This document shows, in pieces, positions 2,277 to 32,539 of a stretch of 48,477 nt of DNA (its first letter is position 1; each line of letters opens with the position of its first letter). Under the pieces are notes generated by a model that did no database searches, was not told the DNA's origin, and saw only the letters and a program-made list of their open reading frames with translations. The translations under genes and the position numbers were made by a program. Source of the DNA: a virus; the IMG/VR virus record IMGVR_UViG_3300005288_000006, positions 1 through 48,477 of that record, one strand, 5' to 3'.

Positions 2277-2305
2277 TTGACGATAGGCGCAAAGGCGAAT
2301 AGCCT
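2277..2305 (+). promoter_or_regulatory. Phage early-type promoter (repeat family), drives plus-strand cassette
   Basis: TTGACG, a 17-base spacer ending AAAGGCGAA, then TAGCCT. It is one of eleven matching sites in this genome. It points rightward into the five small genes 2339-3258, opposite to the surrounding capsid operon. Confidence 0.8.
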
Positions 2306-2338
2306 AGGCTCATCAAATCAACAGCTAGGAGCAAGACG

Positions 2339-2491
2339 ATGATCAGAATGTATAACGTGATTTGGGTTCGGGACGATAAAGACACTCGCGGTCGACTGAA
2401 CGCTGCGCCCATGACACACGCCGAGGCTTGCAGCTTCAAGTCAAAAATTACGGCCTGCCCTTGGCGTCGGGTGTTACTTGAAGAGTGCTAG
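2339..2491 (+). CDS. Small hypothetical protein (50 aa) of accessory cassette
   Basis: First gene after the promoter at 2277-2305, with a good ribosome site (TAGGAG, 8 bases before ATG). It starts MIRMYNVIWVRDDKDTRGRL and has three Cys (CSF..., TACPW, EEC) in the second half. I recognise no family. It overlaps the next small reading frame by 14 bases. Function unknown; its location in a self-contained cassette inside the capsid operon suggests an accessory host-interaction gene. Confidence 0.65.
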   Translation: MIRMYNVIWVRDDKDTRGRLNAAPMTHAEACSFKSKITACPWRRVLLEEC

Positions 2492-2597
2492 GCCGACCCA
2501 ACCCGCAGCGCCCGGCTATTGCTGGGTGCGCATCAAAGGCGGCCGGCGTGACGGCGAGTGGATCCAGGTTCTACGGCGGGAGTATGAGAGCAAATGA
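2478..2597 (+). CDS. Possible small protein (39 aa, TTG start)
   Basis: Reading frame from TTG at 2478 to a TGA that overlaps the next ATG (ATGA). The C-terminal half, with YCWVRIKGG and GEWIQVLRREYESK, has the look of the short phage proteins with a WVR...GEW core. No ATG is available and the start is weak, so translation would depend on coupling to the upstream gene, whose stop lies 12 bases inside. A frameshift product of the upstream gene is an alternative. Confidence 0.45.
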   Translation: MKSARPTQPAAPGYCWVRIKGGRRDGEWIQVLRREYESK

Positions 2598-2956
2598 AAC
2601 GCACCGACGAAATGAAGCTCGGAGAAAAGCTGAAGCGCCCGCGTGACCTTCGCGACGGTGCAGAAAACGCCGAGGATCAATACGAGGAACTAATCGGCAT
2701 TCGAATCGTCCCCAATCACTCCCCTAGCACGGGCCCCGTACTTATAGGCGAAGTGTCGTTCAAAGATAAAAACTTTTCTTGGGACGGCCCTGAGCTTCCG
2801 GATTTGCAGTTCCTACCGCCGCCTACAACCGAGTGCCCCAGCGACCGCCGCAAGGAGCCGATCGAGCGTTTCAGTATCGCGGCGCAACTCCAACTGATGA
2901 AAGCGCTCGCCATTCTCGGCTGGGCGGCATTTATTCTTGAACTGCTGAGGGTTTGA
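2594..2956 (+). CDS. Hypothetical protein with C-terminal membrane helix
   Basis: A 120-aa protein: charged N terminus (about residues 1-30, KLGEKLKRPRDLRD), a central beta-type and Pro-rich part, and one hydrophobic helix at the end (ALAILGWAAFILELLRV), which predicts tail-anchoring in the inner membrane. The ATG overlaps the preceding stop. Within the accessory cassette, a membrane protein next to a signal-bearing protein (3076) would fit a role at the host envelope such as superinfection exclusion (inference). No family recognised. Confidence 0.75.
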   Translation: MKRTDEMKLGEKLKRPRDLRDGAENAEDQYEELIGIRIVPNHSPSTGPVLIGEVSFKDKNFSWDGPELPDLQFLPPPTTECPSDRRKEPIERFSIAAQLQLMKALAILGWAAFILELLRV

Positions 2957-3079
2957 ATGATGGCTAAAATCATGTTGCACCCAATCATGCGCAACTACTG
3001 GTCAATCGCGATCGTCGAGCAGACCACCGGCCGCACGGCCGTTATCCGTAACGGCTATATCGAATTGGTGAAGCTGTGA
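2957..3079 (+). CDS. Small hypothetical protein (40 aa)
   Basis: Starts MMAKIMLHPIMRNYWSIAIV, with GAGGG 5-6 bases upstream, directly after the stop of the membrane-protein gene. Its stop overlaps the GTG start of the next gene (GTGA). The short beta-rich sequence EQTTGRTAVIRNGYIELV gives no clue to function. Tight coupling on both sides supports that it is translated. Confidence 0.6.
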   Translation: MMAKIMLHPIMRNYWSIAIVEQTTGRTAVIRNGYIELVKL

Positions 3080-3258
3080 TTATCGTATTTACGCTGTGCT
3101 TAGGGCTGTTCAACTGTCAGCCGATTCAGACTTTTGAAAGCAAGGAGGGCGACGTCGACTCGATTGTCGAGGCGAAACAGCGTTGCAACGAGCAACGAGA
3201 AAAGCTTGATCCTGAAGTTGACTGGGCTAAGTGCGTCCGAAGTTCTAAAAACCCCTGA
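3076..3258 (+). CDS. Small exported two-cysteine protein
   Basis: A 60-aa protein with an N-terminal hydrophobic segment (MIIVFTLCLGLFNC) resembling a signal sequence, followed by a hydrophilic part with two Cys 16 residues apart (QRCNEQREKL...WAKC). GTG start coupled to the preceding gene. The same plan (short signal, then C...N...C) recurs in the products at 32976 and 33696, so this may be one member of a set of small periplasmic phage proteins. The sequence LFNC is not a good lipobox. Last gene of the cassette; a strong terminator follows 8 bases after the stop. Confidence 0.7.
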   Translation: MIIVFTLCLGLFNCQPIQTFESKEGDVDSIVEAKQRCNEQREKLDPEVDWAKCVRSSKNP

Positions 3259-3265
3259 ACGACAA

Positions 3266-3287
3266 AACGGGCTCCTAGGAGCCCGTT
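3266..3287. terminator. Bidirectional terminator, 22-bp perfect palindrome
   Basis: Two 11-base arms (AACGGGCTCCT and its complement) with no unpaired centre, followed on the plus strand by CATTTTAC and on the minus strand by TTGTCGTT. It ends the plus-strand cassette. It would also hinder minus-strand readthrough from the capsid gene toward the connectors. Confidence 0.85.
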
Positions 3288-3307
3288 CATTTTACAGCGT
3301 GCAGCCT

Positions 3308-3637
3308 TTACTCAGCGCCGCCAGCGGCAGCCGCCATCAACTCAGCGGCATCGGCGTTAGCCTTCTCGACGATAGCCGCGGCATCTTCCTTGGCTTTGGC
3401 GATGATCGTTTTGGCTTCGGCTTTCGCTTCCTTGACGATAGCTTTGGCGTCGCCGCCGTCGCCTTCACCCGACAGGTCTTCACCCAGTGGCCGTACGCGC
3501 GAGCGCAGCAGCTCGGAAGTAGGGAGGTTATCGTCGCCCACTTCCAGTTTCAGAACATCGCCGCGCTTGGCGTCCGGGTAGTCCGGATGGCCGACGAGCG
3601 AACCCAACAGCTCGAATTGCTTTTTCTTGGCGGTCAT
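3308..3637 (-). CDS. Hypothetical structural-operon protein with Ala/Lys coiled coil
   Basis: A 109-aa protein. Residues about 1-55 form a compact polar region with RGDVLKLEVGD and two Pro-turns. Residues about 62-100 are a repetitive Ala-Lys-Glu helix (AKAIVKEAKAEAKTII...) typical of a long coiled coil. It begins at the stop of the capsid gene. Such genes after the capsid often encode head-completion or capsid-associated proteins, but I recognise no family. It is the last late gene before the terminator at 3266. Confidence 0.75.
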   Translation of the reverse strand: MTAKKKQFELLGSLVGHPDYPDAKRGDVLKLEVGDDNLPTSELLRSRVRPLGEDLSGEGDGGDAKAIVKEAKAEAKTIIAKAKEDAAAIVEKANADAAELMAAAAGGAE

Positions 3638-4674: not shown

Positions 4675-5114
4675 TATTTGATCCTCATGTCGATCAGGGT
4701 ATCGACCGCGGCAGACGCCGAAGCGAACACCGAGTAGCCGATGATTGGGTCGGTGCCCACGACGCCCAGTCGCACACGGCCGGCTGCATCAGCGGCGAGT
4801 GGCGAATCGGCGGCGAGGGCTTGAGCGGCGGCAACGCGCACCAGGTACACGTCACGGCTGCGCGGGATGTAGGCTTGGCCCATCTCGTTGGCCGCATAGC
4901 TGTAGGTCAGGGTGTTCTGATGCATCGGGGCATTCAGGATGTAGATGAACGCAGCGGTTGCAGCAGTGCCGTTGACCAGGGTAGTAGCGGTGCGGGTCAC
5001 GATGTTACCGGCTTTCATACCGGCAGCGGCGACAGGCAGCTCCAGGATCTGAGGGGTGTTTTCTTCAACCCCGCCCCGGTAGATTTTGCGTTTTGGACCG
5101 ATATCGATAGCCAT
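4674..5114 (-). CDS. Head decoration / capsid-stabilising protein
   Basis: A 146-aa beta-rich protein of the size and place of lambda gpD-type decoration proteins, between the protease and the major capsid gene. The text has alternating strands (IVTRTATTLVNG, YIPRSRDVYLVRVAAA, GRVRLGVVGTDPIIGYSVF) with a rise of small residues. ATG at 5114 is chosen because GGAG lies 9 bases upstream; a TTG two codons earlier is less likely. Function inferred from context. Confidence 0.75.
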   Translation of the reverse strand: MAIDIGPKRKIYRGGVEENTPQILELPVAAAGMKAGNIVTRTATTLVNGTAATAAFIYILNAPMHQNTLTYSYAANEMGQAYIPRSRDVYLVRVAAAQALAADSPLAADAAGRVRLGVVGTDPIIGYSVFASASAAVDTLIDMRIK

Positions 5115-5120
5115 GCTCAA

Positions 5121-6494: not shown

Positions 6495-6571
6495 GGGTTG
6501 ACTCTCCGGGGTGCGTAAGGTACGGGCTAAGGGTATCATACCCGCATTCCAACGCCACCGGACTCCTTGAC
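6495..6571. promoter_or_regulatory. Divergent control region with GGGTAT-C-ATACCC palindrome
   Basis: The 77 bp separate two divergent virion operons (protease leftward, portal rightward). At 6531-6543 a 13-bp palindrome places TATCAT on the plus strand and TATGAT on the minus strand, each five of six to a -10 box, so both promoters could share one operator. No matching -35 is obvious; TTGACT at 6498 is too far from TATCAT. An activator-dependent late promoter pair is a reasonable guess. Confidence 0.45.
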
Positions 6572-8916: not shown

Positions 8917-8928
8917 CTGTCACTCGGC
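8908..8928. terminator. Stem-loop at 3' end of MuF gene (no U-tract)
   Basis: Perfect 10-base arms GCCGAGTGAC and GTCACTCGGC around one base; the stop codon TGA lies in the stem. It separates two converging operons. No run of T follows on the plus strand, so termination strength is uncertain. A second palindrome, TGTGAC-G-GTCACA, follows at 8944-8956. Confidence 0.5.
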
Positions 8929-8951
8929 TGAGAGGTTTGAGGATGTGACGG

Positions 8952-10155: not shown

Positions 10156-10188
10156 CTCAGTAACGCCTTTTCGGTTGATTGAGCCTGT

Positions 10189-10217
10189 AGCCTATTCGCC
10201 TTTACGCCTACTGTCAA
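10189..10217 (-). promoter_or_regulatory. Phage early-type promoter (repeat family)
   Basis: On the minus strand TTGACA, 17-base spacer ending AAAGGCGAA, TAGGCT. It drives 10155-8952 and starts right behind the terminator at 10223-10250. Confidence 0.82.
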
Positions 10218-10394: not shown

Positions 10395-10423
10395 AGGTTA
10401 TTCGTCTAGGGGTAGGGCGTCAA
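10395..10423 (-). promoter_or_regulatory. Phage early-type promoter overlapping end of upstream gene
   Basis: Minus strand TTGACG, 17-base spacer ending CTAGACGAA, TAACCT. The last codons and TAA stop of gene 10398-10679 lie inside the promoter. It reads into the gene-free unit 10388-10223. Confidence 0.68.
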
Positions 10424-10679: not shown

Positions 10680-10914
10680 TGCTCCGGCCCTCGTAAATGT
10701 TGATATAGGTCTGCGCCTGGTCGATAAGGTGCTGTTCGCTGAGGTCAACGCCCACACGGTCGGCAAGGCGGACCAGGTGTGGCAGCAGGTCCATCAGCTC
10801 GGTTAAGGCCGACTGGCTTTCAGTCAATCGCGCTTCATACCAAGTAGCAGCCTCATTAGGCGAGCTCCAGCCGATGTTGCGCCCTTGGTCCCAAACGTAG
10901 TTGTCGTTCTGCAT
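10666..10914 (-). CDS. Hypothetical helical protein (82 aa)
   Basis: MQNDNYVWDQGRNIGWSSPN followed by long helices (NEAATWYEARLTESQSALTE and LLPHLVRLADRVGVDLSEQH). The start overlaps the upstream stop (TGATG). Composition suggests a soluble helical adaptor. No family recognised. Confidence 0.72.
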   Translation of the reverse strand: MQNDNYVWDQGRNIGWSSPNEAATWYEARLTESQSALTELMDLLPHLVRLADRVGVDLSEQHLIDQAQTYINIYEGRSNDPV

Positions 10915-11114
10915 CAGCCCTCCCTCCTCAGCACCACGCCATTTTTACCCTCAATCAGCAGGTCTTTAACCGTGGACTGCTGAGGGTTTCGCCACAAGGC
11001 CGTGCCCTCCTCGCGTGCGTTCTCGGCCGCTACCCGACGGGCGCAAGCCCTGCAGGCGGCACGGACAACCTGGCCTATGCGGCCGTCAGTTGATTCGATC
11101 AGGAAGAGGGGCAT
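10914..11114 (-). CDS. Hypothetical protein (66 aa)
   Basis: Starts MPLFLIESTDGRIGQVVRAA with a basic, Cys-containing helix (CRACARRVAAENA) in the middle and a short beta hairpin at the end (LLIEGKNGVVLRREG). Overlaps the upstream small gene by 16 bases and the downstream one by 1. Unknown function. Confidence 0.68.
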   Translation of the reverse strand: MPLFLIESTDGRIGQVVRAACRACARRVAAENAREEGTALWRNPQQSTVKDLLIEGKNGVVLRREG

Positions 11115-11300: not shown

Positions 11301-11329
11301 AGGCTATTCGCCTTTAGCCGATCTGTCAA
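11301..11329 (-). promoter_or_regulatory. Phage early-type promoter; -35 fused to a stop codon
   Basis: Minus strand TTGACA, 17-base spacer ending AAAGGCGAA, TAGCCT. The TGA of the upstream gene (11326-11514) is inside TTGACA. It drives genes 11269-10398. Confidence 0.82.
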
Positions 11330-11918: not shown

Positions 11919-11947
11919 AACTTATCCGCCTATAGGCTATCTGTCAA
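11919..11947 (-). promoter_or_regulatory. Phage early-type promoter; -35 fused to terminase stop codon
   Basis: Minus strand TTGACA, 17-base spacer ending ATAGGCGGA, TAAGTT. The TGA of the large terminase gene is inside TTGACA. It reads into the structured unit 11912-11530. Confidence 0.72.
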
Positions 11948-13221: not shown

Positions 13222-13993
13222 CGGCGGCAGGCTCCACAACTTCGGTCTGCGCCACCAGGGTGATCATCGTCGGCATTTGGGACAGCGGCGCCCCATTCTT
13301 GCCGGTCAGCTCCTTGCGATCGATCTGATAGCCGCACAGCTGCGCGTAGAAGACCCGTGCGGCCTGTTGGTCGTGCATCAGTACTTCGATATTGCCGTTA
13401 CGGTCGGTCTTGGCCCCCTTGTACAGCGCGCGACCGGCCTCGGACAGATCGCGGGTATCCGTGACGATCGTGACCTTCACGCCCTGGCCGTGGCACTTAG
13501 GGCAATCGGGATGAGGGTCAAGCGTCGAATTGAAGCCCATGCCGCCGGCCCAATCGGGCATTGAGGCGGCCACTCGCTTGCCCTTCTCATTGATGCGGAA
13601 GCCTTCGTCTGCCTCCGTCACGGCCTTCTCGAACTCGAACTCGCGCCACTGATACCCAAATCCCTCGCCGTGGCAATGACGGCAGCAGCGGGCCTCTACG
13701 CGCGTCAGCTCGTTAGGGTCGGCGGTGGCGATCAGCCAGGTTTTGTGTTTGAGCTCTTCGGCGCCGACATGGAAAGCCTCCAGTCGCTTGGCCCGTCGGG
13801 CCATCGCCGTCTCATATAGGGCCGGCTTGAGATGGGGCTGCCGCATCCAGCTATAGGAGCACTTCCTCGCATTGTCCCGACTGTAGCCGGCGGCGAGTGC
13901 GCTGTTGTACGGGTCGAGCGTCTCTTCGTAGCGCAGAATAAATTCCTGCTCACGGGCGTTCAGTTCCTCGAACCGGTCTCGGTAGTCGGCCAT
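13214..13993 (-). CDS. terS: Terminase small subunit with zinc-binding insert
   Basis: A 259-aa protein. The N terminus has the Terminase_2 helix-turn-helix pattern (LNAREQEFILRYEETLDPYNSALAAGYS, in parts) that recognises the packaging site. It is longer than the usual 150-180 aa because residues about 100-175 contain two Cys-pair knuckles, CCRHCHGEGF and CPKCHGQGV, of the DnaJ-type CxxCxGxG form, likely binding zinc. TAAAGGC precedes the ATG. It is followed by the large subunit. Long zinc-containing small terminases occur in some Pseudomonas and Burkholderia phages (general knowledge). Confidence 0.85.
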   Translation of the reverse strand: MADYRDRFEELNAREQEFILRYEETLDPYNSALAAGYSRDNARKCSYSWMRQPHLKPALYETAMARRAKRLEAFHVGAEELKHKTWLIATADPNELTRVEARCCRHCHGEGFGYQWREFEFEKAVTEADEGFRINEKGKRVAASMPDWAGGMGFNSTLDPHPDCPKCHGQGVKVTIVTDTRDLSEAGRALYKGAKTDRNGNIEVLMHDQQAARVFYAQLCGYQIDRKELTGKNGAPLSQMPTMITLVAQTEVVEPAADE

Positions 13994-14026
13994 CGTCTTA
14001 AGCCTTTAGGCGGTAAATTACAGCCA

Positions 14027-14035
14027 AATATACCA
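14027..14035 (-). promoter_or_regulatory. Possible extended -10 promoter for terminase genes
   Basis: Minus strand TGG-TATATT fits an extended -10 (TGn-TATAAT) about 35 bases before the small-terminase start. No -35 box is seen, and it does not belong to the early promoter family. Confidence 0.3.
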
Positions 14036-14051
14036 TCCCTAGAGGTTCCGC

Positions 14052-14354
14052 GACTGCAGGGGATTGAATTTTGATCCCCTGCAGTCTACAGGCCACGTAA
14101 TCCGCGGGCTCCAGCCATTTCTGCAGGGGATTGCAGGGGATGCAGGGGTGGTTTCGCCGCCGCGCCAGCTGGCAGCCCACGGCCTACCGGCGCTGCCCTA
14201 TATTTATAATATCTAATCTATATCTACTACTTAAAGTAATACTCTGCATCCCCTGCAGAATCGCTACAGGCCACGTATTTAAAGGGCTCCAGCTGCAGGG
14301 GATCGATTTTAGCATCCCCTGCAAAACCGTTTTGATCCCCTGCATCCCCTGCAG
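14052..14354. repeat. Iteron cluster, candidate replication origin
   Basis: Nine full copies and one partial copy of TGCAGGGGAT occur in both orientations at about 14055, 14074, 14122, 14132, 14141 (partial), 14248, 14294, 14314, 14335 and 14344. The first pair forms a perfect 13-base inverted repeat (14052-14064 with 14074-14086). A composite unit, CTACAGGCCACGTA then GGGCTCCAG at identical spacing, is present twice (14086-14114 and 14264-14292). There is no gene here. AT-rich tracts at 14196-14245 and 14355-14420 flank it and the primase is adjacent, as expected of an initiator-bound origin. Confidence 0.7.
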
Positions 14355-14420
14355 ATCAATTATAAATTTAAATCGAACCGGCCTAATCGATTATAAATTT
14401 TACAAATTACATAAATTACA
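14355..14420. other. AT-rich tract beside iterons (candidate unwinding element)
   Basis: About 65 bp made mainly of A and T, with repeated TATAAATTT/ACAAATTACATAAATTAC motifs, lying between the last iteron and the primase terminator. A similar AT-rich stretch occurs at 14196-14245 between the two iteron groups. Such DNA melts easily; the role is inferred. Confidence 0.5.
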
Positions 14421-14450
14421 GCAATAAAAAACCCCGCTCGATGGCGGGGC
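14421..14450 (-). terminator. Rho-independent terminator after primase
   Basis: Minus strand CCCCGC-ATCGA-type loop-GCGGGG followed by TTTTTTATT, directly behind the primase stop codon. It protects the iteron region from primase-operon transcription. Confidence 0.9.
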
Positions 14451-14456
14451 TATAAT

Positions 14457-17102
14457 TTAAATTTCTACCAGTCTCCAGACTATTCGCTTTATTCGATCAG
14501 GCAGACCGACGAATTTCCGACCGTTTAACGCCCTCCCTTTCATGTCGCGAAGGAACCACCCAAGACGTTGAGGGTTCGGCCGACCGTGCTTGTCGGTGTT
14601 CACCAGCTCAATGGCCTCAAGCCACGAAGGGCAGGCAACAGGGTCGACTGGCTCGTGGGTGATCTGGTGAGTCGTGCGGCCCTCATCGCCGAACCGCTCA
14701 AGCCAGGCGTTCATCAGCATCTCGAGCTTCTGTACTTCCGGGTCCGCCTGTTGCTGTGCCTGCATCTCCTCGATCGGGTCACCCCAGCCCAGCCACACAA
14801 CCGCACCACGCACCAGGCCATTCCACTCCTCGAACGACGCGTAACCGCCAATCTTGCGCCGCGTCTCCTCACGGCCGTATGCCGAATAGGTGATGAGCAG
14901 GTCGATCAGGTCACCGCGCAGGCTGTCCATATTGGCCCGGATCACCTCTACCGGGTCAAAGCCGTGCTTGCGGAGCTCCGGCGCCTCATCACTGCAAAGG
15001 TTGATCGGCAGCAGCCGGCGCACCATGTCACCACTGATCGACACGTTGTTGCCGTTGAGCACCCACATCGCCCGGTTCGGCAGGCGCAACATCACCGACT
15101 TACCCAATAGGCGGCTGTTGTACTCCTCACAGGTCAGCGCCATGCAAAGCTCACTGGAGGCGTCGAGGTAGCGCATTACGTTGTCAAACATGATGGTTAG
15201 CGGCCCCTGATCAAGGATCGAGGTCAGCACCTTGGCCTGCTCGGCCTGCTCGCGCCCAATGGCCGACATCCTTGGCTTCTCTCCGGTCAGCCAGAGCAGC
15301 GCTGAGGAGAGAAGCGTTTTACCGGTGCCGAACACCTGAGCATTAACCAGGAAAGCCGGCGCGGTCGGGAGGGCTGGACGGCACACCGCCGTAAACATCG
15401 CCGCCAGGCACACCGACTTGGCCGACTGATCGGCAAAAGGAAACTCTGCAAACGGCGCCCACACCCGCTGCAACGCTTCCGCCATCTCATCCGTCGTCAA
15501 CAACCGAGGTGCCCGCACAGCCCCGCGCTGCACATAAAGGCCGGTGCGCTCGTCGAGCCCCTGCTGCGAGGCGACCGACCCATCCGCCCGCACTACCGGC
15601 AGCGGCACCGCGGCCTTAATCTCACCGACACCCGGGAACCACTCACGCTCAACCACACGGCGCATCAATTCGCCCGGCAACTTAGCCGGAGCACCCTTGC
15701 CGCCCTTCTCCACGCGCATATGCGTCTCAACTTCAGAAGCGAGGGTGTTCAGAGTGTGCTTGAGGATCCGCCCATCGCCCAGCACCGAGACCAATTGCTG
15801 ATTGCGCTGGAACAGGTTAGGGAACGCCGGCAACGCCTTGACGATTGCACGCTCTGCGCTGACCAGTTTGCCGTCGTCAACCTCTATACGCTCACAGCCG
15901 GCTGCCACCTGCTCAGCCGTCAATCGGCCCACGGTCGCCCAGGTTGTGCGGGTAGCGCAGTTGTGCGCAATCCACGCACGCAGCTCGGGCGTATCGGCGC
16001 AAGCCGGATGCATCAGCAGCATTTCGAGCACAACCTGGCAGTTGCCTCCGGCTTTCCACGCCAGATCATCGAGCAACGTGCCCACATCACCTGCAGCCCA
16101 CCGCGCGGAGAAATCACGGGTATCGCTGTTCTGCAGCTCAGCCAATAGTTCGGCCGGATCGGTGCTGCCCTTGAAGAGGGGCACCGGTTCGGTTGTCCAG
16201 TCGATAGCTCGCGGTGTCGCAGCCAGTACCGGCGGGAATGAGTTAAACACAGCAGCCGCATCGACCGGGGCACGTTGAGCGGCGGTCATGCCCGCCTCGT
16301 GCAACAGGCTGCCCAGCGTACGGGCGCCCGGCTTAAAGCTATCCCAGGTGTGCCATTTATCCTCAAAGGCGCCGTCATCGTGCTTGTCGGAAGTGGCCGA
16401 CCACTCGCGGGCCAGCTCAAAGCCAATACCCTCGGCCCCCTCGGTGTGATCTTCCCAGTGTTTGACTGAGGCAATCGCATGCACCCAGCTGTGATAGTCC
16501 TCAGGATCGCGGCCTGACAGCGCCTGCATCACTAGCTCAACGTCATCGAGCTTGCCCGCATAGTCGACAGCCTCACGCGTTGCGCGCGGTTGGCGCACCT
16601 GCACGAGCCATTGCGGTATGGGGTCAGCACGCACCACCGACGGCAGACCACCGGCCCACTGATAAAGGCCGCCATTAGGGTGCCGGCTCGGCGGCAGCAC
16701 CGCATAGCCGTTGTACTTGCCGTCGATGCCCACCGCAGGCTGACTGCTGTAACTGGCGTCATCGCGGCGAGGCGCCGCATAGTAGTCGTGAAATCCGCCG
16801 CCAGGGCTATCGACGCGTAGCGGCGAACCGATAGGCCCGTGCTGTGCCTGCAGCGCCGCAAAGCTCTCGTTGCCGCCGTTGCGTGGGTCAACATCGAACA
16901 CATACAGGCCGCCGGCAGACGGCCGGGTGCCGATATTCGCGTCAGGGTGTGACGACCACCACGCATCTATCTGAGCCAGATCAGTGGTCGCCTCACTGGA
17001 GCCGTGGGAATCCTTGAAGGGTGACTTTGTACCGGCGACAAGTGGAAAGACGTGCCAACCCAAGCCGGCGTAATAACGGGCCCACTGGTGCAGGGGGCTC
17101 AT
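14457..17102 (-). CDS. Bifunctional prim-pol primase / D5-like helicase
   Basis: An 881-aa replication protein. Residues about 1-180 form a bifunctional primase-polymerase (prim-pol) domain: WHVFPLVAGTKSPF, then IGTRPSAGGLYVFDVDPRNGG with the metal-binding DVD, and GGGFHDYY. A PriCT-like section follows (DYHSWVHAIASVKHW). The C-terminal part is ATPase-like with FGTGKTLLSSALLWLTG (Walker A) and a region TIMFDNVMRYLDASS. It makes primers and probably unwinds DNA at the adjacent iteron origin. ATG at 17102 overlaps the preceding stop (ATGA). Residues near the end also contain AAAGCGAATAGTCT-like DNA resembling the promoter family, but without a -35. Confidence 0.85.
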   Translation of the reverse strand: MSPLHQWARYYAGLGWHVFPLVAGTKSPFKDSHGSSEATTDLAQIDAWWSSHPDANIGTRPSAGGLYVFDVDPRNGGNESFAALQAQHGPIGSPLRVDSPGGGFHDYYAAPRRDDASYSSQPAVGIDGKYNGYAVLPPSRHPNGGLYQWAGGLPSVVRADPIPQWLVQVRQPRATREAVDYAGKLDDVELVMQALSGRDPEDYHSWVHAIASVKHWEDHTEGAEGIGFELAREWSATSDKHDDGAFEDKWHTWDSFKPGARTLGSLLHEAGMTAAQRAPVDAAAVFNSFPPVLAATPRAIDWTTEPVPLFKGSTDPAELLAELQNSDTRDFSARWAAGDVGTLLDDLAWKAGGNCQVVLEMLLMHPACADTPELRAWIAHNCATRTTWATVGRLTAEQVAAGCERIEVDDGKLVSAERAIVKALPAFPNLFQRNQQLVSVLGDGRILKHTLNTLASEVETHMRVEKGGKGAPAKLPGELMRRVVEREWFPGVGEIKAAVPLPVVRADGSVASQQGLDERTGLYVQRGAVRAPRLLTTDEMAEALQRVWAPFAEFPFADQSAKSVCLAAMFTAVCRPALPTAPAFLVNAQVFGTGKTLLSSALLWLTGEKPRMSAIGREQAEQAKVLTSILDQGPLTIMFDNVMRYLDASSELCMALTCEEYNSRLLGKSVMLRLPNRAMWVLNGNNVSISGDMVRRLLPINLCSDEAPELRKHGFDPVEVIRANMDSLRGDLIDLLITYSAYGREETRRKIGGYASFEEWNGLVRGAVVWLGWGDPIEEMQAQQQADPEVQKLEMLMNAWLERFGDEGRTTHQITHEPVDPVACPSWLEAIELVNTDKHGRPNPQRLGWFLRDMKGRALNGRKFVGLPDRIKRIVWRLVEI

Positions 17103-17233
17103 ACACAAATGCCCCAAGCTGCGTAGGTCGAAGCCAATCTACGGTAGGGCGCCCATTCAATCGCCATCGGGTAACGAGTGCCGGCAAAAACAAAAGCCCC
17201 GAGCAAGGCAATAGAAAATTTAGTTGCGGTCAT
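17099..17233 (-). CDS. Small hydrophobic protein (44 aa)
   Basis: MTATKFSIALLGAFVFAGTR begins with a hydrophobic helix that could be a signal or membrane anchor, then a short polar tail (RRLASTYAAWGICV). It is joined to the DNA-binding gene before it and the primase after it by ATGA overlaps, so it is translated in line with them. Function unknown. Confidence 0.6.
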   Translation of the reverse strand: MTATKFSIALLGAFVFAGTRYPMAIEWAPYRRLASTYAAWGICV

Positions 17234-17604
17234 TTCGCACCCCGCGCCCAAAGCATCATGGCGTAATTGGCCACGTCGACCCATTCACCGCCCGATTGAG
17301 CATTAACCATCAACCCTTTTAAACAGTGGTCAGTGCACCGCTCCGGATCGTCCCACCCCTCCTTACCCTTAGCCCGGGCCTGCGCCATCTTGGCGTGCAT
17401 GGCAGCGGCGAATTTATCGACCGCCTCATCGTCGGGGTGCTGGTTTACGGCCGTGCGGGCCAGTACATCGGGCAGGTTATAGCGGATCGTGCGGGCGCCA
17501 ATGCGGTGGAAGGGCAGCAAGCCGTCACGCGTCATCTTGCGAATGGTTTCAACATCGAGGCCCAGGGTCTCGGCCAGTTGTTCGGCGCTCAATATGCAGG
17601 TCAT
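17230..17604 (-). CDS. Helix-turn-helix DNA-binding protein (MerR/excisionase-like)
   Basis: A 124-aa protein. Residues about 4-45 form a winged-helix/HTH_17-like domain: LSAEQLAETLGLDVETIRKM followed by the wing with GLLPFHRIGARTIRYNLPDVLA. The C-terminal half is helical and acidic and contains CTDHCLKGL. ATG at 17604 has GGAG 10 bases upstream; a GTG ten codons earlier is less well supported. It heads the operon that includes the primase and lies near the iteron origin. It may regulate that operon or bind the origin (inference). Confidence 0.72.
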   Translation of the reverse strand: MTCILSAEQLAETLGLDVETIRKMTRDGLLPFHRIGARTIRYNLPDVLARTAVNQHPDDEAVDKFAAAMHAKMAQARAKGKEGWDDPERCTDHCLKGLMVNAQSGGEWVDVANYAMMLWARGAK

Positions 17605-17690
17605 AGGGGGTCTACTCCGGTCAATTGCGGTCACGATACGGCGCCAAGCCGCACCGCCGCAAGCGGTATAGCTAAAATCAATCAGGCATT

Positions 17691-19983: not shown

Positions 19984-20012
19984 AGACTATTCCCCTTTGC
20001 ACCTACCGTCAA
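19984..20012 (-). promoter_or_regulatory. Phage early-type promoter (repeat family)
   Basis: Minus strand TTGACG, 17-base spacer ending AAAGGGGAA, TAGTCT. It drives 19955-17711. The divergent plus-strand fibre gene starts only 19 bases behind it. Confidence 0.82.
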
Positions 20013-22659: not shown

Positions 22660-22689
22660 ATCCTCTGTAGGAGTGAACTTACAGAGGAT
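22660..22689 (-). promoter_or_regulatory. Leader hairpin covering the ribosome site
   Basis: Perfect 10-base arms ATCCTCTGTA and TACAGAGGAT around a 10-base loop, followed in the minus-strand RNA by UUUUUAUUUAUG. The second arm includes AGAGGA, the likely Shine-Dalgarno of gene 22358-22651. It could block translation, stabilise the 5' end, or act as an attenuator because it is followed by U residues. Confidence 0.65.
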
Positions 22690-22718
22690 AGGCTATTCGT
22701 CTTTGTGTTGTGCGTCAA
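22690..22718 (-). promoter_or_regulatory. Phage early-type promoter (repeat family)
   Basis: Minus strand TTGACG, 17-base spacer ending AAAGACGAA, TAGCCT. Transcription would begin at or just before the leader hairpin and cover 22651-20964. Confidence 0.82.
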
Positions 22719-22719
22719 G

Positions 22720-23232
22720 CTATTTTGCCGCGGCTGCCTTGATCTTTTCAGGGCTGCCATATTGCTGGCCGATCTTGAACTCTGCCGCCAGGCAGTTGTT
22801 GCCCGAGCGCTGGGCCAGGGCCACCACCTCCTGCCGCAGACCGTCGACACTGCCGAAATAATTGCGCAGGGTGCCGACGCTAAAGCCGGTCTCGGCGGCC
22901 ACCTTTGGCAGCGACAGGGAGTACAGCCCATCGGCGACTGCCTTGCGGTAGGCGGTCTGCACAATATCCGCGCGGTCGTGTTTCTTCCACAGGTTGGAGA
23001 GCGTGGGCACCCGCTCACCTGGCACCAGGGCCAGCCGGTCTTTAGCCTCGACGATTTGATCGATCAGCTCGGCCATCTTGCCCTCGTTGATCAGCCAATT
23101 GGTGGTGCGCGCCACGTCCTTACCCCAATCCGGCTGGGCGGCGAGCTCTTCGGCTACAAGCTTTCGGGTAATATTGCGATACCCGACTCGTCGGGCGACC
23201 GCTACAGCGGCATTGAATACTTCGGTCGTCAT
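22720..23232 (-). CDS. DNA-binding protein with two TetR-like HTH units
   Basis: A 170-aa protein. The second half has a TetR-type helix-turn-helix: KVAAETGFSVGTLRNYFGSV, preceded by the helix AYRKAVADGLYSLSL. The first half repeats the plan: VFNAAVAVARRVGYRNITRK then LVAEELA. There is no room for the usual TetR ligand domain (family length about 200). It is probably a DNA-binding regulator or origin/chromosome-binding protein with paired binding domains. It has its own promoter (23264-23292). The tandem arrangement is inferred by eye. Confidence 0.65.
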   Translation of the reverse strand: MTTEVFNAAVAVARRVGYRNITRKLVAEELAAQPDWGKDVARTTNWLINEGKMAELIDQIVEAKDRLALVPGERVPTLSNLWKKHDRADIVQTAYRKAVADGLYSLSLPKVAAETGFSVGTLRNYFGSVDGLRQEVVALAQRSGNNCLAAEFKIGQQYGSPEKIKAAAAK

Positions 23233-23263: not shown

Positions 23264-23292
23264 AGACTATTCCTTTATGCGTCAGGGTTCAA
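23264..23292 (-). promoter_or_regulatory. Phage early-type promoter (divergent -35)
   Basis: Minus strand TTGAAC, 17-base spacer ending ATAAAGGAA, TAGTCT. The -35 region overlaps the last codons of gene 23282-23476. Drives the double-HTH gene. Confidence 0.68.
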
Positions 23293-24992: not shown

Positions 24993-25003
24993 TGTTGTTG
25001 CTC

Positions 25004-26956
25004 CTATTGATTTGAAGCCTGATCGTATTCGGCTATGTCGATGCCGTCAAGCAATAATTTCTCGGCGATGCGCAGCCGCAGGACTTCGGCGTCTGCACGC
25101 TTCAAAGCCTGAGCGCTGACCACGTCCACGCCGAACAGGTGGAAGAACCGCCGCTGCATCATCGAGTCGGTGTCCCCCTGGTGCTTGCGCCAACCGCCCC
25201 AAAAGCCCATCACCCGGCGCAGTTCGGCAATCTCGGCCAGTTTCTCGCCATGCTGGCTCATCAGCTTGGAGATGCCGATATTGGGCGTGCGCACCTGCAG
25301 CAGGTACTGGTTGTATTGCTCCAAAGGCAGCAGCTCTTTGCGCACCGTGGCGTAAAGCTCTTCCAACTTCTCTGGCGTTAGCAGCTCGAGGTCGCCCTCG
25401 ACGTGCTCGGGATCGGTCCGGGTTTGGGGTTCCGGGAAAAACCCGCAGTGGGGACAGGCTTTATAGATCCGCTCGTAGGGCTGCGCGCAGGGCAGCGGGA
25501 TCTCGGTCAGGTGTCCGGCGGCCAGCATCGCGTTATTGGTCCAGCCCACATCACGGAATGCAGACCAGGTAGGGCCGGCGGCGTTGGCCAGGCGCAGACC
25601 AGGGTTTGCGCACACGCGGTAGGGCACTGTTTCACCGGCAACTGAGCGGCGGCTTGATCGGCCCAGTTGCCATACGCGGTGCGGCGCTTCTGGCGGCCCA
25701 TTGAACCGAATAATGTTCGAACCATGGTCGATGAGAATGCCGAAGGGTTTAGGGCTAGCCGCGATACGCGCCCGGCGCCCGGCGCTGTCGAGAGCGTCAT
25801 AGCCGATCTTCTGCTCGTCGGTCAGCAGCAGGCGATAGAGTCGGCCGACCATCTGCATAAAGCGCGGCAGACTGGCGGTGCCGGTCCCGAGAATTACCAC
25901 CTCAAGGGCGGGGAGGTCGTTGCCCTCCCCGAAAATGCCCACGTTTACGAGCATCTTGAGCTTGCCGGTTTCGATATCCTGCCCCGCCTGATCGCGTATC
26001 TCCGGGTCCGTCTCGCCGTCGAGCGCCAGCGCCGGCACGCCGATATCTCGGAATCGCTTTGCCGTCTCCTCAGCCTTAGCACGGCTCGACACAAAGCAAA
26101 TACCTTTCTTGCCGGGTGCGTACTGCATGTATTTTTCGACGATATCGCCAACCAGGTCGGCGTCCTCCTCGGCGGCGATCAACTTGGCCTGCACGAACTC
26201 GCCCCCGGAACCGATCGCGATATTCTCGTAGGCAACTTTGCAGGGCACCGAGTAAATCTCGTACGGGCAGAGATACCCGTCCTCGAACAGCTCCAGCAGC
26301 GTCGGGCCCATCACCATGGCGTCGAACAGGCCGTCACTGTCGCGGCTCAACCCGCCACCGTCCGCCCGTGCCGGCGTGGCGGTAACGCCCAAGCCTTTTA
26401 CTTGCGGATGCGTGAAGATTTGCGCGGCCTTGGCCCACTGGTTGCCCTTGCCGTTGGGATCGCCGTCGCCTTGCTGGTGGTGGGCCTCGTCGCACACCCA
26501 TAACGTGACGCTGGCGAAGTATTTGGCATATTGCGCGGCCTGCTTGCCGGTGGGGATACGCCACAGGGTGCCCACGCTCGCCACGCTGATCGGCGCATTG
26601 GTGTTGTGGTGGCAGACGCCCTGCTTTTTAAGAATCGACTTGATGATCGTTTTGCGGTCTTTCGGGTCACAGATCAGTCGAAAGGGGATTGCGAACTCAT
26701 TCAGCGTCGCGGCGATCTGGCCCACCAGTTCTTTGCGATGGGCAAAAATACAGGCGGCGCCCTGGTGCTTGGAGATGATCGAGGCGATAAGCCGAGTCTT
26801 GCCACCACCGGTCGGGATGACACATAAAACGTTCTGATGGCCGACGTCCCACTCGAGGTAAATGCCGGTCTCGCATTTCTGTTGGTAGCCGCGAAGACTG
26901 ACGGGCGTCCGCGTCGCCCCGGCCAATAGACTGGCCTTGAAGTCGAATGCACTCAT
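25004..26956 (-). CDS. SF2 DEAD/DEAH-box helicase
   Basis: A 650-aa helicase of the SSL2/type III restriction helicase group. Motif I PTGGGKT is at residues 48-54, motif II DEAH (CDEAHH) at about 158, motif III VTATPAR, and motif VI QMVGRLYR, followed by a C-terminal zinc-like CPHCGFFPEPQ and a helical tail. Unwinds DNA during phage replication or recombination. ATG at 26956 has GGGGA 9 bases upstream; an ATG five codons earlier is possible. Divergent from the replication operon on the plus strand. Its last codons contain the next promoter. Confidence 0.9.
   Translation of the reverse strand: MSAFDFKASLLAGATRTPVSLRGYQQKCETGIYLEWDVGHQNVLCVIPTGGGKTRLIASIISKHQGAACIFAHRKELVGQIAATLNEFAIPFRLICDPKDRKTIIKSILKKQGVCHHNTNAPISVASVGTLWRIPTGKQAAQYAKYFASVTLWVCDEAHHQQGDGDPNGKGNQWAKAAQIFTHPQVKGLGVTATPARADGGGLSRDSDGLFDAMVMGPTLLELFEDGYLCPYEIYSVPCKVAYENIAIGSGGEFVQAKLIAAEEDADLVGDIVEKYMQYAPGKKGICFVSSRAKAEETAKRFRDIGVPALALDGETDPEIRDQAGQDIETGKLKMLVNVGIFGEGNDLPALEVVILGTGTASLPRFMQMVGRLYRLLLTDEQKIGYDALDSAGRRARIAASPKPFGILIDHGSNIIRFNGPPEAPHRVWQLGRSSRRSVAGETVPYRVCANPGLRLANAAGPTWSAFRDVGWTNNAMLAAGHLTEIPLPCAQPYERIYKACPHCGFFPEPQTRTDPEHVEGDLELLTPEKLEELYATVRKELLPLEQYNQYLLQVRTPNIGISKLMSQHGEKLAEIAELRRVMGFWGGWRKHQGDTDSMMQRRFFHLFGVDVVSAQALKRADAEVLRLRIAEKLLLDGIDIAEYDQASNQ
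25022..25050 (-). promoter_or_regulatory. Phage early-type promoter inside helicase 3' end
   Basis: Minus strand TTGACG, 17-base spacer ending ATAGCCGAA, TACGAT. It lies in the final codons of the helicase gene and would drive 24992-23282. Less conserved in the spacer than other members, but spacing is exact and the -10 is the best of the family. Confidence 0.6.
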
Positions 26957-26970
26957 TGAAAAATTCCCCA

Positions 26971-26999
26971 TTGACAATACCGTCAAGGATGAATACCTT
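26971..26999 (+). promoter_or_regulatory. Phage early-type promoter for replication operon
   Basis: TTGACA, 17-base spacer ending AAGGATGAA, TACCTT. It drives 27039-30084. It sits in an 82-bp divergent gap; no family promoter is visible for the helicase on the other strand. Confidence 0.75.
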
Positions 27000-27038
27000 G
27001 CAGTCCTCAGTCAAGCAAAACAACCGAGGAATCGAAGA

Positions 27039-28129: not shown

Positions 28130-29286
28130 GCGCGCATAGCCGCCTAGCTCCGTCGAGTGCTTTCCGCTGGGTTCCGTGCCCGTTGTCGGTAGCGCTCGGT
28201 GAACAATTTCCGGCCCTGACGCAAGACCCGTCAGGGCCGGAGGGCACCGCGGCGCACGAGGTTTGGCTGATGATGCTCAACGGCATCGAGCCGGCTGTAG
28301 GTGACTCGACATCCGAGGGCATCCTGATCAGCGACGAGATGATCGAGGGGGCCCAGCAGTTCGTCGATAAAGTGCGCTCGATCGCAGAACGGCACGACGC
28401 CATGGGCCGGGTCCGGCTTGAAGAGCGCGTAGAAATGCGCGGGATTCATCACGTCATGTTCGGCACGTCGGACGCATCGATCGACCTGCTCGAGCTGTGC
28501 GGCGAGTGGCACATGATCGATTACAAGTTCGGGCACCGCGCCGTAAGCCCGTTCGAGAATCTGCAACTGGCCGCGTATTTCTACGGTGAGTGCGAGCGTC
28601 TGCAGCTGACCGATGAGCAGATCGATAACGCTAAGGTGTTTTTCCACATCGTTCAGCCGCGGTGCTTCTACAACCGGCCGGCCAGTCAGACGTGGGAGAC
28701 GACCGGCAAAGAGCTGCGCAAGTTGTGGGCCAAGATGAAAGAGTCGGCGCTAGACGCCATTACGCACGAGCTCAGCGCCCGTCCGAAAGTTGGACCCTGG
28801 TGCCGAGACTGTCCGGGGCGCCGTGCTTGCCCCACGCTGCGCACCAATGCCGGGGCGAACATCGACTGGATCAACCGGAGCTGGCCGACCGAAATGCCGC
28901 TCGACGCTGCAGGCCTAGAGCTGAAGTTTGTCGAGGCGGCGTTGGCGCAACTGGAAGCCCATGCAAGCGGTTTGCGTGAGCAGGTGCAGCACGGCATTGA
29001 AGCCGGTCAGCATTGCCCGGACTGGGCCATGTCACCGCAGCCGGGTCGTGGCAAGCACTGGCTCGTACCGCCGGAGGATATTTTCGCGCTTGGTGACTGC
29101 CTCGGCGCTGATCTGCGCAAGAAGCAGGAGCCGGTTACACCGAACCAGGCTATCGATTTGTTGAAAAAAGCTGTAAAAGGCTTTGACGCATCACTCATAG
29201 AAGAATATGCTAAACCCAACCCCGGATCGGTCAAACTGATCGCCCGGACTGACACTCTCGCACATCGCGTATTTGGAGCAAAATAA
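28126..29286 (+). CDS. DUF2800 PD-(D/E)XK nuclease with Cys cluster
   Basis: A 386-aa Cas4/RecB-like nuclease of the DUF2800 family. N-terminal SRLAPSSAFRWVPCPLSVAL and EGTAAHEVW, the core GTSDASIDLLE then HMIDYKFGHRAVSP (D and DYK) and ENLQLAAYFYGE (QxxxY). A C-terminal WCRDCPGRRACP, with the Cys near the N terminus, could hold an iron-sulphur cluster. In related phages it stands beside a DUF2815 ssDNA-binding protein and polymerase, as here, implying a role in replication-linked recombination. GTG start overlaps the previous stop. Confidence 0.85.
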   Translation: MSAHSRLAPSSAFRWVPCPLSVALGEQFPALTQDPSGPEGTAAHEVWLMMLNGIEPAVGDSTSEGILISDEMIEGAQQFVDKVRSIAERHDAMGRVRLEERVEMRGIHHVMFGTSDASIDLLELCGEWHMIDYKFGHRAVSPFENLQLAAYFYGECERLQLTDEQIDNAKVFFHIVQPRCFYNRPASQTWETTGKELRKLWAKMKESALDAITHELSARPKVGPWCRDCPGRRACPTLRTNAGANIDWINRSWPTEMPLDAAGLELKFVEAALAQLEAHASGLREQVQHGIEAGQHCPDWAMSPQPGRGKHWLVPPEDIFALGDCLGADLRKKQEPVTPNQAIDLLKKAVKGFDASLIEEYAKPNPGSVKLIARTDTLAHRVFGAK

Positions 29287-30084: not shown

Positions 30085-30102
30085 ACTTCAACCGATATCC
30101 AG

Positions 30103-30125
30103 CGGCTCCTACGGGGGCCGTTTTT
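30103..30125 (+). terminator. Terminator with UACG tetraloop
   Basis: CGGCTCC-TACG-GGGGCCG followed by TTTTT, between the ssDNA-binding gene and the polymerase gene. One G-U pair in the stem. No separate promoter is obvious before the polymerase, so it may lower rather than stop polymerase expression. Confidence 0.8.
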
Positions 30126-30140
30126 CGTAAGGGAATAGCC

Positions 30141-32489
30141 ATGCTCGCTCCTCCGCCACCTCCTGCGCTGCCCTACGGCTTTCAAATCCCGGTCGGCCCG
30201 GGTATCAGCACTGTCATTGCAGACTGCGACTTCGAGACCTATAGCGCCGCCGGCTTCCACTGGTGCGGCCCCACCCTTAAAAAACCGCTCGGCTATTGGA
30301 CCGGCCCGCCGGGTGCGGCACAGGGCAAGAAGGGCCTCGGCGTGATCGGCGTACGCGTCTACGCGGAGCATCCCTCGACCGAGGTGCTGACATTCAAATA
30401 CGACTTGAAAGACGGCCGGGGTAAGCGGGGATGGAAGCCCGGCCAACCATTGCCCCAGGACCTGTTCGACCATTTTGCCGCCGGTAAGCTTTGCGAGGCG
30501 CACAACGCCGGGTTCGAACAGACGATTTGGGAACAGGTCTGCGTTCCAAAATACGGTTGGCCATCGATCGATCCGAAGCTCTGGCGCTGTTCGGCTGCCA
30601 AGTCGCGTGCATTCGGCCTGCCTTCCTCATTAGCCGATGTGGGGCAGGCCCTGAAGCTGGACACACAAAAGGACGCTGACGGTAAGCGCCTCCTTAAACT
30701 GTTCAGTTGGCCCAAGGATCCGACGAAGAAAGATCCCCGCTGGCGCGTACTGCCCAGTGAAGAGCCGGCGGACGCCCTGAAGCTTGACGACTATTGCGAG
30801 ACGGATATCGCGGTCGAGGGCCACGTCTCGGCGCGCTGTCCCGACCTGCCTCCGCAGGAGCTCGCCTATTGGCTGGCTGACCAGGCCATCAACCGCCGAG
30901 GTATTGGCGTCGACATGTCGGCCGTGCGCGATTGCATGGCGGTCGTCAACGAGGTGCTAAAGGCCTATGACGAGGAGATGTTTAACCTGATCGGCCTGCG
31001 CACCAGTCAGGCGAAAAAGCTTGTCGAGTGGATGGCCGATAACGGCGTGCGCGGCAGTGATGGCCGGCCGGTGAAGTCCCTGGCGGCCGAAGAGCTCGAA
31101 TTCCTTTACGAACAGCGCCACAACTACGCGCATCCGGTCGGCCGCGTGCTGGAGATTCGCGGGCTGACAGCCTCGGCCAGTGTCAAGAAAGTTTTCTCGA
31201 TGGCCAATCACGCGAGCCGCGACGCTCGGCTGTGTGACCTGTTCATTTACCACGGGGCCCGCACCGGGCGCGACACCCACGCCGACGTTCAGCCCGGCAA
31301 CCTGCCGAAGGCCGGGCCGGACCTGCGCTGGTGCGACAATCAGGGGATCTGCCGCCGACCCTACGCCAAGCACCTGGATAACTGTCCATGGTGCGCCTGC
31401 TCGGCGGCGTTCAGCACAGAAACAAGCCCCGAATTGCCGAACGACGAGGGTAAAGAACGCGGCTGGTGCTACCAGGGCGTCGAGTACGTGCTTGAGATTT
31501 TAAGCTTACGCTCCATGTCTGCCCTCGAATATTTCTTTGGCGATGCGCTGCTGTGCATCTCCGGCGTTGTGCGCTCGCTCCTGGTGGCGCGCGAGGGCTA
31601 CCGGCTCATCTGTTCGGACTACGCCAGTATCGAGGCGGTCGTCTCCGCGGTGTTGACCGGCGAGCAGTGGCGTGTCGAGGCGTTCGAGCGCAAGGAGGAC
31701 ATCTACCTCCACGGTGCCGCGGGCGTTACCGGTAAGACCTACGAGTGGTATCAGGCCAACGGCTTCAAGAAGCACCCTGATCGCCAGAAGATCGGCAAGC
31801 CGGCTGAGCTGGGCCTGGGCTTCGGCGGTTTCAGCGGTGCACTGTTCGCGTTTGGCTTCGAGGGCGAAAAGAAAGAAGCCGATCAGGTGTGGATGGCATG
31901 GCGCAAGGCCAGTCCGGCATTCGAAGAAATGTGGGGCGGCCAGTATCGCGGCGTGCCCTGGGCGCCGACGAGCCGTGAGATGTTCGGCCTTGAGGGTGCG
32001 GCGGTTCAGGCGGTATTGAGCCCCGGCAGCGTGCACGGCTATCGCGGCATCACCTACCAGGTTATCGACGACGTGCTCTATTGCACGCTGCTCAGCGGCC
32101 GGCGCATGGCCTATCACCAGCCGCGCCTATGGTACGGCGCCAAGCGCGACGGCTGGGTCGAGTGCTACTCGCTCACCTATATGACTTGGAACACAAACGC
32201 CAAGATGGGCGCAAAAGGCTGGGTGCGGATGGAAACCTACGGCGGCCGGCTATTTGAAAACGTTGTTCAGGCCACCGCCCGCGACATCATGGCCCATGCT
32301 GTGGTCAAGCTCGAGGCGGCAGGTTACCCGGTGGTCCTGCGCGTGCACGACGAAGTAGCAGCGGAGGTACCCGATGGCTGGGGCTCGCTTGAGGAGTTCG
32401 AGGCGATCTTGACAGACCTGCCCGAGTGGGCTCTCGGTTGGCCAATCCGTGCCGCCGGATGGGAGGGGCAGCGATACCATAAAGACTGA
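30141..32489 (+). CDS. DNA polymerase, family A, with 3'-5' exonuclease
   Basis: A 782-aa replicative polymerase. The exonuclease motif DFETYS is at residues 30-35, with further acidic motifs in CEAHNAGFEQTIWEQ. Motif A CSDYASIEAVVSA is at about 491, motif B KPAELGLGFGG at about 550, and motif C VHDEVAAEV at about 735 (HDE). An insertion with CPWCAC and its partners (about 407-420) may bind zinc. The start begins MLAPPPPPALP, another proline tract. AGGG precedes the ATG. The protein copies the phage genome together with the prim-pol and helicase. Confidence 0.93.
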   Translation: MLAPPPPPALPYGFQIPVGPGISTVIADCDFETYSAAGFHWCGPTLKKPLGYWTGPPGAAQGKKGLGVIGVRVYAEHPSTEVLTFKYDLKDGRGKRGWKPGQPLPQDLFDHFAAGKLCEAHNAGFEQTIWEQVCVPKYGWPSIDPKLWRCSAAKSRAFGLPSSLADVGQALKLDTQKDADGKRLLKLFSWPKDPTKKDPRWRVLPSEEPADALKLDDYCETDIAVEGHVSARCPDLPPQELAYWLADQAINRRGIGVDMSAVRDCMAVVNEVLKAYDEEMFNLIGLRTSQAKKLVEWMADNGVRGSDGRPVKSLAAEELEFLYEQRHNYAHPVGRVLEIRGLTASASVKKVFSMANHASRDARLCDLFIYHGARTGRDTHADVQPGNLPKAGPDLRWCDNQGICRRPYAKHLDNCPWCACSAAFSTETSPELPNDEGKERGWCYQGVEYVLEILSLRSMSALEYFFGDALLCISGVVRSLLVAREGYRLICSDYASIEAVVSAVLTGEQWRVEAFERKEDIYLHGAAGVTGKTYEWYQANGFKKHPDRQKIGKPAELGLGFGGFSGALFAFGFEGEKKEADQVWMAWRKASPAFEEMWGGQYRGVPWAPTSREMFGLEGAAVQAVLSPGSVHGYRGITYQVIDDVLYCTLLSGRRMAYHQPRLWYGAKRDGWVECYSLTYMTWNTNAKMGAKGWVRMETYGGRLFENVVQATARDIMAHAVVKLEAAGYPVVLRVHDEVAAEVPDGWGSLEEFEAILTDLPEWALGWPIRAAGWEGQRYHKD

Positions 32490-32510
32490 CGAACGGTATG
32501 CATAAAGTCT

Positions 32511-32539
32511 TTGACAGGGAAGTTAAAGACGAATAATCT
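32511..32539 (+). promoter_or_regulatory. Phage early-type promoter (repeat family)
   Basis: TTGACA, 17-base spacer ending AAAGACGAA, TAATCT. Drives 32574 and 32758, and by readthrough the CsrA-like gene group. Confidence 0.82.

Follow-up and report, generated by a model that had tools for sequence, protein, structure and literature searches.

Phage repressors with many operator copies in early regions are familiar from mycobacteriophage L5, where gp71 acts on stoperators, and from phiC31, with its conserved inverted repeats, and the operators of phage P1 overlap -35 elements. Phage-wide promoter sets are known as well, such as the MotA-dependent middle promoters of T4, which carry an extra conserved element near -35 and lack a good -35, and in E. 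coli the operator of RutR, a TetR-family protein that has a ligand domain and serves in metabolism, is TTGACCANNTGGTCAA. For the C1 repressor of P1, the published account gives 22 operators across the genome with a 17-bp asymmetric consensus (PMC8546580). Dispersed phage operators are already known, and what we describe here, as read from sequence, is a confirmed promoter class together with its likely regulator in the IMG/VR virus record IMGVR_UViG_3300005288_000006 (48,477 bases; IMG/VR lists it as linear; this whole stretch is called the window). Our main conclusion, to which we give a probability of a little under two in three, is that twelve sites in the window form a sigma70-type promoter class with a built-in operator for a small TetR_N-type protein of the phage, most likely a repressor. 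Computation here shows the class and how well it is kept, the occurrence of the dyad in other phages and its association with the protein, and where the regulator gene lies relative to a class site.

The likeness to P1 lies in one phage protein with many dispersed operators, its own promoters included; operator-like sites at promoters number 12 in the window and 10-12 in each relative. P1, however, is temperate and C1 keeps lysogeny, whereas a PF00589 integrase was not found in the window phage, whose candidate regulator has a TetR_N-type helix-turn-helix (HTH). L5 and phiC31 are also temperate and use other repressor families, whereas the 12 copies in the window are all promoter-like; and unlike the MotA-dependent promoters of T4, the window class has a nearly invariant TTGAC. 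The likeness to RutR is that of a TetR-family protein on a TTGAC-N6-GTCAA dyad, but the phage proteins have no ligand domain. The TetR_N-type proteins of Jedunavirus and Peatvirus (JD001 gp45 and its counterpart in PEAT2) are homologous to the window protein, and it is in their phages that the dyad promoter is sharpest; they have a single HTH and a near-palindromic putative operator, whereas the window clade has a tandem HTH and an asymmetric one with GAATA. In the literature library searched, no paper was found in which the TetR-like proteins of this group of phages are given a regulon.

The promoter class and its conservation

The original prediction had recognised eleven copies of one promoter class, named here, as they were there, by the left ends of the sites, eight of which lie on the minus strand. 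All eleven are present, with 17-base spacing and TANNNT in 11/11 and TTGACR in ten, the exception being TTGAAC at 23264. The pattern TTGANN-N17-TANNNT has 13 matches in the record and none when read backwards, and these comprise the eleven sites, one more at 29183-29211 (+) and an outsider at 42896 (-). A position weight matrix was built from the eleven sites, with 30 simulated genomes as background. In leave-one-out scoring the sites ranked 3-12 in the genome, and the full matrix places 12 sites at 27.0-37.8 bits, the next score being 12.7 (the reverse strand of 26971) and the top score in the simulated genomes (n=30) 16.8 bits. The eleven are thus true members of a class of twelve, the site at 29183 having been overlooked (Table 1).

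To follow the class beyond the window we used a clade of eight genomes, the window and seven relatives recruited via DNA polymerase. The closest named phages by that protein are vsMR, TPWB-08 and MR14 (53-57% identity), and megablast with window bases 1-25000 matched no phage record. An iterated matrix finds 89 sites in the 8 genomes, 10-12 in each, with the lowest accepted score at 19.4 and the highest rejected at 13.3, and from their order and the sequence that follows them most sites can be paired across the genomes, each with a single counterpart. By these marks the site at 2277 has a counterpart in each of the 7 relatives, and the twelfth, at 29183, has one at the equal place in 7/7. The motif scan suggested at the outset therefore returns a class that is isolated in the genome and kept in all seven relatives. 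An exact search for the window-class pattern outside the clade gave 42 stretches, of which 12 fall in contigs already placed in the clade; 16 further records that were re-scanned held one copy each, none of them encodes the TetR_N-type protein, and this search yielded no new clade member.

The class consensus is TTGACA/G-N7-TCAWAG-N2-GAATA-R-Y-CT. Its -35 is near TTGACA (TTG in 89/89 sites, A4 and C5 each in 80/89), the spacing is 17 in 12/12 window sites, within the sigma70 range of 16-18, and the -10 keeps TA...T (T24 in 89/89, A25 in 88/89, T29 in 87/89). Within the spacer, C14 is found in 72/89 sites, A15 in 86/89, A or T16 in 88/89, G18 in 70/89 and both G21 and A23 in 89/89. The site before the regulator's own gene is the TTGAAC variant in five of the eight genomes and has TTGAC in the other three.

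The window phage has a siphophage-type map with terminase, portal, head, tape measure, tail and lysis genes, and a replication region encoding helicase, primase, exonuclease, a Gp2.5-like protein and DNA polymerase. Nine of the 12 sites, including 22690-22718 with its hairpin, have a start codon ~28-39 bases past the -10; past those at 10395-10423 and 11919-11947 no such start codon is seen, and 29183 starts within a gene. The site at 10395 holds up as a class member but has no open reading frame (ORF) with a close start downstream. The earlier claim that no site precedes a structural operon, the accessory cassette at 2277 excepted, agrees with the gene map made here, on which the head, tail and terminase genes have no class site placed on their strand to serve them directly. 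The claim that the class maps all early and middle operons went too far: most units are served, but the helicase and HTH_17/primase operons fall outside. The latter (17634-14457, minus strand) starts past a terminator-like hairpin, and no class site is found there. The helicase has a divergent promoter, TTGA(C/T)N-N17-CANNNT, at constant offset in 7/7 genomes examined (G005 left out), and since its -10 adjoins the -10 of the class site at 26971-26999 (+), use of either promoter probably shuts out the other.

Table 1. Promoters of the class, the divergent helicase promoter and the two candidate regulators in the window
Feature	Position	Strand	Details
Class promoter	2277-2305	+	37.3 bits; ATG 33 nt past -10; accessory cassette within structural region
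Class promoter	10189-10217	-	37.8 bits; left early small genes (10155-8952 -)
Class promoter	10395-10423	-	30.5 bits; probable structured RNA, terminator-like hairpin ~190 nt downstream
Class promoter	11301-11329	-	35.7 bits; 10914-11114 (-) and neighbours
Class promoter	11919-11947	-	30.8 bits; overlaps terminase gene end; downstream stretch without evident conserved ORF
Class promoter	19984-20012	-	34.6 bits; small-gene operon from 19953 downwards
Class promoter	22690-22718	-	35.7 bits; just beyond regulator gene; hairpin and T run directly after
Class promoter, TTGAAC variant	23264-23292	-	27.3 bits; start codon of TetR_N-type gene 60 bases on
Class promoter	25022-25050	-	28.3 bits; post-helicase genes (24992 downwards)
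Class promoter	26971-26999	+	27.4 bits; exonuclease/single-stranded DNA-binding/DNA polymerase operon
Class promoter, twelfth	29183-29211	+	27.0 bits; within 3' end of exonuclease gene; feeds single-stranded DNA-binding protein, DNA polymerase
Class promoter	32511-32539	+	33.3 bits; small genes right of DNA polymerase
Divergent helicase promoter, TTGACT-N17-CATCCT	26986-27014	-	outside class; overlaps 26971-26999
TetR_N-type protein, 170 amino acids, two HTH modules	22720-23232	-	Pfam TetR_N; candidate class regulator
HTH_17/excisionase-like protein	17230-17634	-	Pfam HTH_17 1.7e-7; rival candidate regulator

A dyad over the -35 and the TetR_N-type protein

The TCAWAG of the spacer and the TTGA of the -35 form an imperfect dyad, positions 13-16 (TCAW) mirroring TTGA, and the symmetry of column composition is highest at the TTGA/TCAA centre (0.39, compared with 0.17-0.31; 30 centres tested). 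The conserved spacer end AAAG-R-CGAA of the original prediction would in this way be explained in its TCAWAG part, as the mirror of the -35, but not in its CGAA part. In 8/12 window sites at least three of the five GTCAA positions are matched. An extended dyad, ATTC...GAAT, seen at 26971 and in L009, was dropped: its outer positions are without excess, and the left ATTCCCC at 26971 reads as a Shine-Dalgarno sequence for the helicase gene, which is transcribed divergently.

In other phages the dyad is sharper. Counted as strand hits, observed over expected from simulation, TTGAC-N6-GTCA is abundant in JD001 (18/0.7), PEAT2 (23/0.7), KsaM-C1 (19/0.5) and MR14 (8/0.2); further counts are Scuro 5/0.2, vsMR 5/0.1, SppYZU01 2/0.2, TPWB-08 1/0.3, G008 4/0.6, G009 1/0.3 and Psp6 5/0.2, where the matches lie in genes. 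Counts are B2 0/0.1, Vib367.14 1/0.3, SFCi1 2/0.5, R9Y1 0/0.1, PD0307 0/0.3 and AeroV348 0/0.1. The dyads of JD001, PEAT2 and KsaM-C1 are near-perfect palindromes, TTGACG-N4-CGTCAA, and in 7, 6 and 5 cases, respectively, a TANNNT stands at 17-base spacing to the palindrome's -35 half. Scuro sites carry AATA where the window class has GAATA. The promoters of TPWB-08 (L014) have a different motif, longer and asymmetric, whose spacer contains AAAAG and whose -10 is TATAGT or TAAAGT. SFCi1 (L048), Vib367.14 (L047) and PD0307 (L058) combine a TetR_N-type gene with different repeated promoter motifs (GCCCTC-N6-GAGGGC; GTTAGCA), which are possibly operators of altered specificity.

The candidate regulator matches Pfam TetR_N (PF00440) at 9e-7, with 29 bits against a cut-off of 24. 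An AlphaFold2 model from seven clade sequences (predicted local distance difference test score, pLDDT, 89.4) places four-helix modules at residues 3-63 and 83-143, followed by two short C-terminal helices and no ligand-binding domain. With VIA-align, residues 82-163 match TetR-family chains at Z up to 11.6, and Foldseek against the PDB gave no match at E 0.001 or better; the N-terminal HTH module is supported by prediction and homology. Because the C-terminal ligand-binding domain is missing, we file the protein as a TetR_N-domain protein only and not as a full TetR-family regulator. Full-length tandem homologues are Scuro gp24 and SppYZU01 gp43. Many relatives are single-HTH proteins of 92-113 amino acids, and single-HTH homologues are found in JD001, PEAT2, KsaM-C1, Psp6, Vib367.14, SFCi1, R9Y1, PD0307, AeroV348 and MR14; JD001 gp45 and the PEAT2 homologue, whose gene is unannotated, match at E 7.5e-23 and 2.8e-22. 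A tblastn search with Scuro gp24 returned 86 phage records, 65 of them named for Klebsiella, and a scan of viral contigs with that single protein gave no match. TPWB-08 encodes, at 41941-42612 (-), a 223-residue protein with ~4 TetR_N-like HTH repeats by eye and weak profile support.

Several lines of evidence connect dyad and protein. The conserved window genes present in all six complete dyad phages outside the clade are those for the TetR_N-type protein, a nuclease, the helicase, gene 27392 and the exonuclease, and the TetR_N-type protein is the sole recognised HTH protein among these five. The start of its gene lies 60 bases past a class site in 8/8 clade genomes; the distance is 50 in Scuro, 63 in SppYZU01, 61 in KsaM-C1 and, measured to the ATG, ~58 in JD001 and PEAT2; in MR14 it lies 60 bases past site 37006, using the annotated start at 37066 (a longer ORF gave none). 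In all, 14 genomes have a class site 50-63 bases ahead of the regulator gene, and a 15th genome examined, Psp6, has none. In a reverse test, IMG/VR records were selected solely by one TTGACG-N4-CGTCA-N8-TANNNT match and the protein was sought with profile A3. Among the matches listed, it was found in 13/20 and 14/23 records (27/43 together), compared with 0/20 for control records selected by other patterns, and in 24/27 records with at least 2 dyad places compared with 3/16 with one; the three protein-negative records with at least 2 dyad places are fragments of <24 kb.

Proposed regulation and alternative explanations

We infer binding, repression and timing as follows. Host RNA polymerase would fire the class promoters at phage entry, as the original prediction had it, and the sigma70-type -35 and invariant 17 spacing favour this. 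The operator would be the dyad, with the TTGAC of the -35 as its left half and, as its right half, TCAWAG in the clade and GTCAA or GTCAT in other phages. The TetR_N-type protein would then occupy the -35 and half of the spacer, which would put it sterically in a repressor's place, and once bound it would most likely block RNA polymerase. As it accumulates it may close early and middle transcription, its own gene included, in a delayed negative feedback; this self-shutdown is expected because the regulator's own gene lies behind a class promoter. The TTGAAC variant at that gene might keep it active against its own product for the longest time. Of the two kinds of regulator originally offered as binding the spacer end, a phage protein is favoured over a host factor, since the dyad goes with the phage gene in phages whose hosts range over Klebsiella, Pectobacterium, Acinetobacter, Shewanella and Pseudomonas. 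No PF00589 integrase was found, and a scan of GTDB genomes with the regulator gave no relative; both results are easier to reconcile with shut-off in a lytic phage than with the repressor of a prophage.

Some variation within the clade would be in keeping with contact by this protein. Position 22 of the class is G in 14/31 sites of G004, G005 and G010 and in 4/58 elsewhere, and these three genomes differ in the C-terminal recognition helix; the drift is suggestive of contact by the TetR_N-type protein, but the genomes are related.

A number of observations weigh against the operator and repressor reading. In the window, exact TTGAC-N6-GTCAA is found at one of the 12 sites, 26971, exact TTGAC-N6-GTCA also lies within tail genes at three places, and the dyad halves show no covariation over 51 non-redundant sites (joint z 0.2). 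Because the halves do not covary and the window has one exact dyad, the case for an operator rests on the other phages. GAATA, with its G21 and A23 in every site, adjoins the -10 and lies outside the dyad. In B2, Vib367.14, SFCi1, R9Y1, PD0307 and AeroV348 a related protein occurs without clear dyad enrichment, and in vsMR dyads are present and a TetR_N-type ORF was not detected. The Fisher p of 8e-7 for the reverse test against its controls is a guide only, as many of the records may be related. A Gly in the recognition helix accompanies the dyad in most lineages, in a listing that counts strand hits for observed and expected alike and takes in neither the clade's 8 genomes nor L063 and L064 (duplicates of JD001 and PEAT2), TPWB-08, B2 or L093. 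As a predictor of the dyad, however, this Gly was rejected: L084 and L086 have Gly without a dyad, Psp6 has Gly with its exact dyads in genes, and G004, G005 and G010 are without Gly. Finally, that the bound protein represses rather than activates is itself a step we infer.

The alternative that survives best, although we regard it as unlikely, is that the sites are ordinary sigma70-type promoters from a single stock, whose spacer end reflects polymerase preference or inheritance, and that no regulator binds them. The near-consensus -35 and 17 spacing agree with this, as do the lack of covariation and the position of GAATA, the most invariant part of the spacer, abutting the -10. However, the class is strongly conserved at spacer positions not usually kept in sigma70 promoters, the helicase promoter and the TPWB-08 promoters are without this spacer conservation, and dyad and protein co-occur in records that were selected by DNA alone.

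It is improbable that the TetR_N-type protein binds the class but activates it, aiding polymerase at weak -10s. The -10 (TARYCT) is indeed far from TATAAT, with the remainder of the promoter nearly fixed, and some TetR-family proteins, for example LuxR/SmcR, activate; yet the dyad covers the -35 itself, which is not a usual place for an activator, and the protein's own promoter belongs to the class. We give very little credence to a different phage regulator, such as the HTH_17 protein, binding the spacer end including GAATA, which the dyad leaves unexplained: that protein has an HTH domain above the Pfam cut-off and is conserved in 6/7 relatives, but its own operon is without a class site and it was rejected as class binder for its narrow spread, being present in MR14 only among 7 other dyad phages.

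Neighbouring elements and wider meaning

Several other elements lie near the class sites. From the promoter at 10395-10423 to a terminator-like hairpin, the stretch 10394-10225 (-) would give an RNA of ~190 nt with no evident ORF. In it, CGCCCCTC...GGACAA within a 7-bp stem is kept in the window, G001, G003 and G006, and the stem pairs in 4/4 genomes with changes on both sides; Rfam gave no match at gathering score, and the stretch is probably a new structured phage RNA. Directly after the class promoter 22690-22718, the hairpin ATCCTCTGTA...TACAGAGGAT with its T run, at 22660-22689 (-), may be either a terminator of the regulator gene or an attenuator of the next unit. In G001, the sequence past the counterpart of the 11919-11947 site (19883 -) resembles a tRNA gene within an early transcript; ARAGORN found no tRNA gene in the window. 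Nine copies of GCAGGGGAT, over both strands, all lie at 13901-14500, between primase and terminase, with none elsewhere in the record, and this iteron-like array is a candidate replication origin. The 31-kb circular record of vsMR (L013) has dyad promoters, DNA polymerase and structural genes, and helicase and primase were not detected in it, which raises the question of a deletion derivative or satellite.

A broader reading, which we hold as tentative and rather doubtful, is that miniature TetR_N proteins free of a ligand domain might be general early shut-off regulators in a broad group of lytic phages that takes in Jedunavirus, Peatvirus, the relatives of Scuro, SppYZU01 and MR14, and the window clade. 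Operator symmetry would then track HTH copy number, single-HTH proteins using near-palindromes and tandem ones a less symmetric site.

Transcriptional control is obscure in many lytic phages, a number of which have a gene annotated "TetR family regulator" without an assigned target. A candidate pair of protein and operator can now be named, in phages of culturable hosts that include the Klebsiella Jedunaviruses. If the reading is true, the fusion of two HTH modules together with a change in operator symmetry would offer a tractable case of regulator-operator co-evolution.

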